From: Lysinibacillus fusiformis
GTDB lineage: Bacteria > Bacillota > Bacilli > Bacillales_A > Planococcaceae
Length of the DNA stretch: 64,000 bases
Assembly: GCF_007362955.1 (NCBI RefSeq)
Contig: NZ_CP041696.1
Coordinates: forward strand, 3,348,001-3,412,000
Direction: 5' to 3'
The position numbers were made by a program, and so were the translations under genes. Below the pieces are notes generated by a model. The model made no database searches and was not told where the DNA came from. It was given only the letters and a program-made list of their open reading frames with translations. Within the stretch, counting starts at the first letter, position 1, and each line of letters begins with the position of its first letter. This document shows positions 44,735 to 46,462 of this stretch, one piece after another.

Positions 44735-44763
44735 TTGCTTTTTTTATCTATATATATTAGAAT
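44735..44763 (+). promoter_or_regulatory. sigma-A promoter of the efflux-gene leader
   Basis: TTGCTT (44735-44740), 17-bp spacer, TAGAAT (44758-44763). It places the transcript start near 44770, more than 500 nt before the MFS gene. Confidence 0.6.
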
Positions 44764-44806
44764 AAACAAAAATATTTACTGATATTAAGAAAGGAGGCAA
44801 AAAGTC

Positions 44807-44953
44807 ATGGAAACTGTTTTCAGAAGAGTTGCAACAGAAGTAAAGTCATATTTACAACTAGCAGATTTACTTTCAAAGGGACCAGTCTGTCCTTTTTTAA
44901 GCAAACTTCATATAGAAACCAGCTACCGGAAGCTTTTTGTCTTTTTATTATAG
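44807..44953 (+). CDS. 48-residue upstream ORF in the efflux leader
   Basis: ATG 44807 follows an excellent AAAGGAGG ribosome binding site. The product METVFRRVATEVKSYLQLAD then runs across a terminator-like hairpin (44875-44898) inside its own coding sequence and ends YRKLFVFLL. The good initiation signal with a terminator inside suggests a regulatory leader ORF whose translation state decides read-through. Not recognised as a known protein. Confidence 0.5.
   Translation: METVFRRVATEVKSYLQLADLLSKGPVCPFLSKLHIETSYRKLFVFLL
44875..44898 (+). terminator. attenuator-like terminator inside the upstream ORF
   Basis: Stem AAAGGGAC / GTCCTTTT with loop CAGTCT; the run of six T residues is partly in the stem. 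Confidence 0.5.
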
Positions 44954-45010
44954 AATCTGTAGTAACACTTAAATTATTTGTGCATTTTCATTAAGTGCTA
45001 AGCAATGACT

Positions 45011-45038
45011 AGACGCCGGTTGTATATGGCGTCTTTTT
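45011..45038 (+). terminator. second terminator in the efflux leader
   Basis: Perfect stem AGACGCC / GGCGTCT with 10-nt loop followed by TTTT. Confidence 0.75.
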
Positions 45039-45057
45039 GCGTTATAAGGGAGAGAAT

Positions 45058-45192
45058 TTGAGACGGACATATCTATACGATCTCTTATTGGATGAAATTC
45101 ATGAACCAGTGGACAAAGGTCAGGTAAGGGACTACCAAATACTGAAAAACCAAGTTGGAAAAATGGATGTGCCCCCAATAAAGGGGTTTTAG
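45058..45192 (+). CDS. 44-residue upstream ORF 2 in the efflux leader
   Basis: TTG 45058 after AAGGGAGAG. The product begins RRTYLYDLLLDEIHEP and ends KMDVPPIKGF, hydrophilic, without membrane segment. Family not recognised. Its stop is 14 nt before the TTG of the third short ORF. Confidence 0.4.
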   Translation: MRRTYLYDLLLDEIHEPVDKGQVRDYQILKNQVGKMDVPPIKGF

Positions 45193-45206
45193 AAAGGGTG
45201 AGTCAA

Positions 45207-45266
45207 TTGCTTAAAAAACTTAGGCGATATAGAAAGGTTTCAGTGTTCCAAACGCTTCTAATATAG
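45207..45266 (+). CDS. 19-residue leader peptide ending in the RBS hairpin
   Basis: TTG 45207 lies 6-7 nt after AAAGGGTG. The peptide MLKKLRRYRKVSVFQTLLI is strongly basic at the start. Its last codons and stop (45264-45266) lie in the 5' arm and loop of the hairpin that abuts the MFS ribosome binding site, the arrangement seen in cat and erm leader peptides. Confidence 0.5.
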   Translation: MLKKLRRYRKVSVFQTLLI

Positions 45267-45283
45267 AAAAATAATTAGAAGCG
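45253..45283 (+). promoter_or_regulatory. hairpin abutting the ribosome binding site of the MFS gene
   Basis: Perfect 10-bp arms CGCTTCTAAT (45253-45262) and ATTAGAAGCG (45274-45283) with 11-nt loop. The 3' arm ends on the first base of the GAGGA ribosome binding site (45283-45287), so the hairpin should hinder initiation at ATG 45296. A ribosome paused near the end of the 19-residue ORF would open it. Confidence 0.65.
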
Positions 45284-45295
45284 AGGAATAATAAT

Positions 45296-46462
45296 ATGGA
45301 AAAACAAAAAATCTTTAATAAATCATTTTTATTTTTATTTATAAGTAACTTTTTAATTTTTATAGGGTTTGAAATGTTGCTCCCTATTTTACCGGCCTAT
45401 TTGTTAAGCATGCATGCATCTTCTATGCAAGTAGGTTTAATGACATCGTTATTTACATTAGGTGCTGTTCTAATCAGACCTTTTGTAGGGTATTATTTAA
45501 TTGATAATCAACGGAAAAGTCTTGCCATTATAGCAAGTGTAGCTTTAATGATTATTACAATGCTGTATCCTTTTCTTAATATTATTTCGCTATTGCTATT
45601 GTTACGACTTTTCCATGGCGCAGCATGGGGAGTATCAACCACGGCCAGTAGTACAATTGTAGTCGATTTAATTCCTAAAACTCGATTAGGAGAAGGTATA
45701 GGGTATTTTTCTATTTCAACAACGTTCGGGGCTATCATTGCACCGAGTATAGGTATCCTTATCTATGACGCTTTTTCCTTCGATATTTTAATTTGGTCAT
45801 CAGTAGTACTCAGCCTATTGGCTGTAATAGCGCTTCAATTTATATATTCATCTAAACCTGTTAAACATGAAAAGCAACCATTTCGATTTTTTGAAGCAAT
45901 ATTTGAAAAGGACGCATGGTTCCCAGCATTACTGACGGTTATTACAACACTTGGTTTTGGAGCAATTATTACTTTTTTAGTTCTTTTTGGAAAACAACAA
46001 GGATTAGATCAAGTTTTCCTATTCTTCCTCATCAATGCGACTGTCGCAACTTTACTACGTCCGTTTACAGGTAAATGGTATGACAAAAAAGGACCTTGGT
46101 CTATCATCATTGCGTCAGCAGTGCTAGGTTTTTTATCACTTGTTATACTTTCTTATACGACAAATAATCTTTATCTTATTATTGCAGCGATTTTATTTGG
46201 TGCAGGTTATGGGACTGTCATGCCATGTTTACAAACATGGACGGTTCAAAAGGTAAGTGAAGAAAAAAGTGGCGCTGCCAACGCAACCTTTCTTTCCAGT
46301 TTTGACGTTGGTGTTGGGGTAAGCGCATTTGTCTTAGGGATTTTAGCTGAATGGATTAGTTTAGAGATGATCTTCCGATTTGTTAGTCTAAGTTTTCTTG
46401 CAGTGGCTGTTTTAGTCTATAAGGATTTTTTAAATGAAAAGAAAAGGTATAAAAATATATAA
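45296..46462 (+). CDS. MFS efflux transporter
   Basis: 388 residues with twelve membrane helices. Motif A is recognisable after helix 2 (GYYLIDNQRKSLAI), helix 4-5 has FHGAAWGVSTTASST, and the second half contains GAGYGTVMPCLQTWTV. Drug:proton antiporters of the DHA1 kind have this layout. The substrate is unknown, but the peptide-ORF/hairpin leader is typical of genes induced by translation-inhibiting antibiotics. GAGGA precedes ATG 45296; a terminator follows. Confidence 0.88.
   Translation: MEKQKIFNKSFLFLFISNFLIFIGFEMLLPILPAYLLSMHASSMQVGLMTSLFTLGAVLIRPFVGYYLIDNQRKSLAIIASVALMIITMLYPFLNIISLLLLLRLFHGAAWGVSTTASSTIVVDLIPKTRLGEGIGYFSISTTFGAIIAPSIGILIYDAFSFDILIWSSVVLSLLAVIALQFIYSSKPVKHEKQPFRFFEAIFEKDAWFPALLTVITTLGFGAIITFLVLFGKQQGLDQVFLFFLINATVATLLRPFTGKWYDKKGPWSIIIASAVLGFLSLVILSYTTNNLYLIIAAILFGAGYGTVMPCLQTWTVQKVSEEKSGAANATFLSSFDVGVGVSAFVLGILAEWISLEMIFRFVSLSFLAVAVLVYKDFLNEKKRYKNI

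Follow-up and report, generated by a model that had tools for sequence, protein, structure and literature searches.

A probable two-stage ribosome-sensing leader before an MFS efflux gene of Lysinibacillus fusiformis, and a core element shared with other resistance gene leaders

Introduction

How could a leader carrying several short open reading frames (ORFs) and hairpins control the drug-efflux gene behind it? The question was addressed for the leader at 44735-45298 of a 64,000-nucleotide (nt) stretch of the Lysinibacillus fusiformis genome (the window; G000:C1:3348001-3412000 of a 4.97-Mb single-contig genome). The leader lies ahead of an MFS efflux gene (45296-46462) encoding 388 amino acids (aa), with NorA as the nearest solved structure (E 3.4e-16). 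Positions are those of the window and all features described lie on its + strand. An earlier note on the locus had proposed that termination dependent on an upstream ORF (uORF) is combined here with a hairpin at the Shine-Dalgarno sequence (SD) of the gene, in answer to a translation-targeting antibiotic. We consider it likely that the leader is a two-stage ribosome-sensing switch, with transcription attenuation through a first uORF (uORF1) followed by translational attenuation through a third (uORF3). The proposed combination is consistent with parts kept in 14/14 aligned leaders and with the recurrence of its first module before ABC-F, Cfr and FexA genes, but two of its components, a second uORF (uORF2) and a terminator hairpin within uORF1, are not.

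Conservation of the leader

Leaders were aligned from 13 MFS loci of the genus (the window's included) and from one locus found through the core element described below (L160), giving 14 leaders. Close relatives of the MFS protein were present in 12 other genus genomes at 75-81 % identity (13/32 genomes with its own included). The promoter block, uORF1, a terminator-like hairpin (T2), uORF3 and the SD hairpin were each found in 14/14 leaders, and uORF2 in none of the 13 relatives. The promoter named in the earlier note, TTGCTT-N17-TAGAAT (44735-44763), is probable: its TTTGC is invariant in 14/14 leaders, but it has a weak consensus (8/12 bases by our own count) and fell below the threshold of the promoter scan, which left it unlisted.

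uORF1 (44807-44953, 48 codons) has an ATG start and the strong SD GGAGGC, both kept in 14/14 leaders, in agreement with the 48-codon ORF and strong ribosome binding site of the earlier note. Its length ranges from 47 to 56 codons, and its insertions and deletions are multiples of three, with a 1-nt gap after the core in L160 as the sole exception. The coding signal is weak (66, 87 and 107 deviations at codon positions 1, 2 and 3 over 47 gap-free codons in 14 leaders).

T2 (45011-45034) is an intrinsic terminator-like hairpin of 8 bp with a T-rich tail (z -2.72), and the second terminator of the earlier note was thus confirmed. Its six inner stem pairs and T tail are kept in 14/14 leaders, the outermost A-T pair in 11/14, and L160 shows one double change from C-G to T-A. 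uORF2 (45058-45192, 44 codons) probably plays no functional role in the leader. No match was obtained by tblastn against the 13 other leaders, and the gap between T2 and uORF3, 157 nt in the window, is 21-97 nt in the 13 relatives and there holds no ORF of more than 18 codons; uORF2 was rejected as a part of the leader for want of a counterpart in these relatives. Structure prediction supported the uORF1-internal hairpin, T2 and the SD hairpin, but not the hairpin-like stretch at 45160-45200 (z +0.20), which shuffled sequences folded equally well.

The proposed translational stage

In translational attenuators of the ermC, cat and fexA type, the SD of the gene is hidden by a hairpin at the end of a short uORF; leader peptides of ErmK and Mef are described in PMC4335068. 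The same arrangement, with the end of a short uORF paired beside the gene SD, was found in 14/14 leaders; the window leader differs in the transcriptional module added upstream. uORF3 (45207-45266) encodes a basic peptide and is exactly 19 codons long in 14/14 leaders (start TTG in 13, GTG in 1), with its stop within the hairpin loop. GGGTGAG precedes it in 14/14 leaders, and TTG rather than an earlier GTG was taken as its start because two leaders have one extra base before the TTG. The peptide reads M[LF]KKLR[RQK][YFL]R[KND]V[SA]V[FC]... across leaders. The end of uORF3 supplies the 5' arm of a hairpin of 10 perfect bp (45253-45283; arms 45253-45262 and 45274-45283) that adjoins the SD of the MFS gene. 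The hairpin had a z of -6.12, was equalled by 0/200 shuffles and keeps all 10 pairs in 14/14 leaders; the 19-codon ORF and hairpin of the earlier note were found as described.

In read-through RNA, the MFS ribosome-binding site would lie at the foot of this hairpin. A ribosome stalled by a drug at about codons 11-14 of uORF3 would cover the 5' arm, upon which the hairpin would open and the MFS gene would be translated; with codon 13 in the P site, the ribosome would reach into the 5' arm. Codon 12 is Ser in 11/14 leaders and Ala in 3/14. Stalling by chloramphenicol and linezolid is described, in the passages cited, as best with Ala and less so with Ser or Thr at the penultimate position (PMC8987054). 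On account of this preference and codon 12, and aided by the parallel with FexA, a phenicol or oxazolidinone-like inducer could be guessed at, though it is less likely than not. uORF3 also contains R/K-X-R/K motifs of the macrolide kind, which seem too far upstream for opening of the hairpin.

uORF3 and its hairpin are the most invariant part of the leader, and the first module precedes several different genes. Both points would suit a leader whose translational stage alone matters, with uORF1 and T2 left over from a module that was copied in from a different resistance gene. This is improbable, as uORF1, the core and T2 are kept in 14/14 leaders even though the 12 other MFS proteins are just 75-81 % identical. 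The two-stage switch is retained here, and the stage upstream is considered next.

The proposed transcriptional stage

A long helix (P1) over the SD and start of uORF1 was predicted, which the earlier note had not described. In the minimum free energy fold of 44785-45045 (z -2.54; 1/200 shuffles as good), AGGAGGCAAAAAGU and the start region of uORF1 pair with the end of uORF1; the 5' arm (44792-44821) holds the SD, start and first codons of uORF1, and the 3' arm (44915-44945) lies near its end. Duplex energies were calculated for leaders picked by hand: of 28, one (L188) gave no 3' arm and the other 27/27 had a P1-like duplex, with energies from -19.9 to -33.7 kcal/mol. The mean for shuffled 3' arms was -12.1 kcal/mol, and one of them reached -30.2. 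In a wider test of a helix between the uORF SD/start region and the RNA after the core, p was <=0.05 in 39/112 loci and all 60 shuffles were beaten in 28 (112 of 118 loci; 6 lay too near an end).

The 3' arm of P1 contains ACCGG (44925-44929), a candidate antiterminator strand complementary to CCGGT on the 5' side of T2 (45016-45020). The strand sits 45-47 nt past the core start. Among 34 leaders surveyed (14 MFS, 9 ABC-F, 2 FexA and 9 Cfr), AACCGG with CCGGTT was found at the same place in 9/14 MFS leaders. The window and the two FexA leaders had ACCGG with CCGGT, L006 had a 5-bp pairing, and TTATCG(G) with its complement occurred in 6/6 Cfr leaders having T2 (3 of the 9 Cfr leaders gave no T2). 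The letters differ between classes and the pairing persists. Because they share bases, P1 and the antiterminator strand would exclude each other.

From these parts we infer the following first stage. RNA polymerase would pause at the core before P1 closes over the uORF1 ribosome-binding site, which would give a ribosome time to load on uORF1. With no drug, the ribosome would complete uORF1 and leave, P1 would close, the ACCGG strand would be tied up, T2 would form and transcription would stop. If a drug stalled the ribosome early in uORF1, P1 would stay open, and pairing of ACCGG to the 5' side of T2 would let polymerase read through.

Several results weigh against this scheme. The 14 aligned leaders are not independent, several being near-identical. 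P1 pairing exceeded that in slid registers (45-61 %), but at 81.0 % it was no higher than in column shuffles (81.6 %; 462/500 as high), these counts being lowered by some ABC-F rows that are one base off in the alignment used (A3). Covariation was not significant, and P1 therefore rests on complementarity and position. Cognate P1 arms beat permuted arms overall (p 0.005) and not clearly within classes (p 0.078). The antiterminator pairing is 5 bp in the window (p 0.29) and 4 bp in L160, is absent from L005 and L008, and was not seen in this form in the 9 ABC-F leaders.

The core element across genomes

The first module contains a conserved core, AAGGGACCAGTCTGTCCTTTTTTA (44876-44899), inside uORF1. 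Genomes were searched with a full core pattern, ANGGGANNNGTNTGYCCTTTTTTA, and with a shorter core, GGGANNNGTNTG. The full pattern was found in 94/261 genomes of the order, all of one family, and in 54/398 genomes of the class (45/359 outside the window's own family, 39 of the 398 being same-family genomes). The reversed pattern was found in 0 of the 261 and 0 of the 398 genomes, and a control with complementary loop letters, made as one pattern only, in 0/261 genomes of the order. A viral collection contained 2 core stretches.

A scan of named genomes gave at least 118 core loci. An ORF followed within 700 nt in 106 of these and was lacking in 12. Downstream ORFs were scanned with Pfam using at most their first 300 residues, some being cut by a contig end. 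Among the 106 genes, 63 matched ABC_tran, 56 of them also the ABC-F linker ABC_tran_Xtn; one ABC gene (L122) looks like a sugar importer, leaving 62 candidates. The remaining resistance types were 8 RlmA zinc ribbon, 7 MFS_1, 5 RrnaAD (Erm-type), 4 Radical_SAM (Cfr), 1 CAT, 1 APH (Mph-type) and 1 hexapeptide transferase, which would be Vat-like. Ribosome-drug resistance types thus made up 90/106 downstream genes, or 89 without L122. The other 16/106 were unrelated or unclear (e.g. SecA, GCV_T, a transposase, RidA, a MATE protein, a methyltransferase). Chance probably explains part of these occurrences of the core. NCBIfam cut-offs were exceeded by examples of Cfr (L049, 629.6 bits, cut-off 530), ABC-F (L072, 475.2, cut-off 380), FexA (L065, 1002.8, cut-off 900) and Erm (L078, 260.6, cut-off 212), and examples of RlmA, Mef, Mph and CAT had NCBIfam matches below the cut-offs.

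When the leader was used as a DNA query, its first module was recovered in the same genus before ABC-F and Cfr-type methylase genes, and it also lies ahead of a FexA gene in the genus; the genome of the window has a copy before an ABC-F gene at G000:C1:3661895. Leaders were also collected by protein similarity. GGGANNNGTNTG was present within 650 nt in 23/30 ABC-F leaders, compared with 0.32 expected from shuffles, and in 4/4 Cfr leaders; these sets are less biased than the pattern scan and not unbiased, since the ABC-F and Cfr queries came from pattern-found loci, the ABC-F set was the best 30 of 60 matching genomes, and the 4 Cfr loci overlap genomes already matched. From uORF start to core the distance was 80-89 nt in 70/103 loci with a clear start (15 of the 118 lacked a clear SD and start) and 69 nt in the window.

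Some neighbours of the core merit a separate record. Same-genus ABC-F leaders (L072 at about 2250-2400; L045, L046, L062-L064, L066, L067 and L071) have a second uORF by the ABC-F start, a short one reading MCNLICPFIS or a close variant; by eye its sequence could pair with the gene SD. L070 (G019:C22, from 2974) is an ABC-F type leader copy with a one-base core loss and no ABC-F gene seen downstream in the stretch examined; it is probably a relic. At L103, L198-L202 and L214 the core stands some 30 nt upstream of a RidA-like gene (Ribonuc_L-PSP, by Pfam for L103 only) in a different leader that opens with a MKKRSIRFLSMGIG-like ORF. At L090 (Gracilibacillus lacisalsi) and L166 the gene behind the core encodes a class I methyltransferase (about 246 aa), which in L090, a Pfam-scanned locus, had a weak NpmA match below the cut-off. 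This enzyme could be an undescribed rRNA methylase.

The core on plasmids

The fexA leader of L065 (same genus) matched 162 plasmid records, and 154 of the matches spanned 80 % or more of the leader; 106/162 were from Enterococcus and 26/162 from Staphylococcus. In S. aureus pSA737, GGGANNNGTNTG lies 317 nt before fexA, with TCC and then five T after it, and falls within an ORF labelled hypothetical. The full core was found 220 nt before cfr on an S. aureus plasmid and 93 nt before cfr(B) on an E. faecium plasmid, and cfr(D) had only a two-mismatch copy upstream. The cfr leader ORF matched 109 plasmid records, and in 44 the match covered 80 % or more of the ORF. On S. aureus plasmids, the leader peptides of fexA and cfr are annotated only as hypothetical proteins. 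The window leader itself had no match in plasmids, and its 44800-44960 segment none in phages.

Peptide, terminator or pause

The recurrence of the core could reflect a peptide, a terminator or another RNA signal. In the window it is read as KGPVCPFL, and the same frame is used in same-genus ABC-F leaders, where KG.VCPFLSK is kept; the second uORF before several ABC-F genes, MCNLICPFIS or near, resembles it. A drug-stalling peptide motif, [KT]GxVCPFL, might accordingly be what is conserved. Cfr leaders, however, read the core in another frame (KGSSLSFF), its NNN codon is a stop in 18 of the at least 118 loci, and in loci with an ErmK-like leader peptide (MTHSMRLRFPTLNQ, PMC4335068) the core lies beyond the peptide stop. 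For these reasons selection appears to act mainly on the nucleic acid; purely peptide-level conservation was rejected, and a peptide signal as the basis of the core is very improbable. The fourfold sites of the core codons GGA, CCA and GTC vary in 0/14 leaders, and eight other fourfold sites of uORF1 vary in 0 to 7 of 14.

The earlier note had placed a terminator inside uORF1. A hairpin does fold there in the window (z -2.35), and its pattern (<=2 mismatches) was expected 0.04 times per shuffled 64 kb, with 4/100 shuffles having one. The GGG/YCC stem is usual in ABC-F leaders: it is followed by T6 in 9/10 same-genus leaders, L070 having an indel, and YCC comes next in 22 of the 23 core-bearing leaders elsewhere. 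The core might then be a conserved intrinsic terminator that a translating ribosome overrides, with a second terminator after it. In the MFS clade, however, the YCC 3' arm is gone from 12/14 leaders and kept in 2/14 (in L006 and L009 other short pairs are still possible), while GGGACCAGTCTG is kept in 13/14 and TTTTTT follows the core in 14/14. The stem is short, and the loop, which a terminator would not need, is as conserved as the stem, as the loop-swapped control illustrates. Termination is thus not the conserved property of this hairpin, and a terminator as the function of the core is unlikely. Because YCC is lost where GGGACCAGTCTG stays, a polymerase pause is preferred, and the MFS-clade core appears to fit one better than a terminator.

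In the review passages cited, an elemental pause is marked by G-10, Y-1 and G+1, whereas a NusG-dependent pause has TTNTTT at -11 to -6 and a hairpin situated 11-12 nt upstream of the RNA end (PMC12288461). If the RNA end is set at the T before the final G of GTNTG, positions -11, -10 and -9 of the core are G, -1 is T and +1 is G; a T run follows. By this alignment the core would correspond to an elemental pause, with a possible NusG motif. A loop pseudoknot was rejected: the cognate CANAC was seen upstream in 12 loci, where the three other letters gave a mean of 15.7, and downstream in 11, where they gave 18.0.

We tentatively propose, short of calling it probable, that the core (GGGANNNGTNTG, usually with YCC and a T run, about 80-90 nt past a uORF start) is a common RNA-polymerase pause gate in Bacillota, shared by ribosome-drug resistance genes of as many as eight unrelated kinds, the mobile cfr, cfr(B) and fexA among them. 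Polymerase would read its fixed loop as an elemental pause, or some factor would do so. Three findings count against the two-stage scheme with its pause element. TTNTTT follows GGGANNNGTNTG within 14 nt in only 12 of the 23 core-bearing ABC-F leaders; the T run is not constant, which makes the NusG half of the pause reading the weaker and has reduced the probability given to the shared gate. In the loci searched, the conserved loop yielded no pseudoknot partner. The core was found in 0/30 RlmA genes of the family taken by protein similarity.

The core is one short, testable sequence that lies before genes of the ABC-F, Erm, RlmA-type and Cfr kinds, before several MFS genes (FexA, Mef-like), and once each before Mph-type, CAT and Vat-like genes. 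Were it to act as a pause gate, the sensing of ribosome drugs in Bacillota would depend in general on the timing of polymerase, and the element would serve as a marker of inducible resistance genes and of the leader peptides that go with them. One shared timing signal would then underlie inducible resistance to many such drugs.

Comparison with known systems

The following systems were compared by their descriptions in the passages cited. Transcription and translation attenuation are already combined in the vmlR leader of B. subtilis (PMC9226507), where the uORF is Met-Ile-Asn and the gene is an ABC-F; the window leader has a 48-codon uORF and a separate 19-codon uORF at an SD hairpin, and its gene is an MFS. 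The tlrB (yxjB) leader of B. subtilis also has both layers, and its longer hairpins carry a pause hairpin at their apex; one of these longer hairpins would block the leader peptide as well. Pausing there buys ribosome loading time, and RNA 3' ends are argued to be nascent and polymerase-bound (PMC6851288). The need for loading time would likewise account for a pause element positioned at the P1 apex. tlrB has a single 9-aa leader peptide with RYR, unlike the window leader with its separate peptides for each layer. The combination of both layers is thus not new, and the window leader is a variant of the double attenuation published for vmlR and tlrB (PMC9226507, PMC6851288).

In bmrB-bmrCD of B. 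subtilis a 53-aa leader ORF containing a terminator structure likewise precedes a drug transporter, and the attenuator is induced by lincomycin, erythromycin and chloramphenicol; the transporter is of the ABC type, and the passages describe no translational stage (PMC4191407). A 2010 terminator survey, in the part cited, described a GGGc...gCCC terminator as conserved upstream of rimP and other 'ABC-leaders' (PMC2965389). No description of the shared core was found in the passages of the literature searched. At the fexA loci L065 and L309, the order of the two modules is apparently, by eye, the same as in the window.

Other features of the window

The window leader had no match to Rfam covariance models. 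When nine loci were compared with Rfam to E 2, the only match between core and gene was Termite-leu in L109 (26.7 bits, E 0.12; gathering score 51). A known Rfam family was rejected, the gathering score never being reached in the window leader or the nine loci. Among the 25 NCBIfam models shown of 28 that matched the MFS protein, none reached its cut-off. Elsewhere in the window, Rfam matches were an FMN riboswitch (31213-31410), a guanidine-I riboswitch (62230-62327) and a Bacillaceae-1 RNA (2382-2448). Two ORFs of 225 and 189 aa (41803-42480 and 42519-43088) are presumably the two halves of an apparently interrupted glutamate-1-semialdehyde aminotransferase gene.

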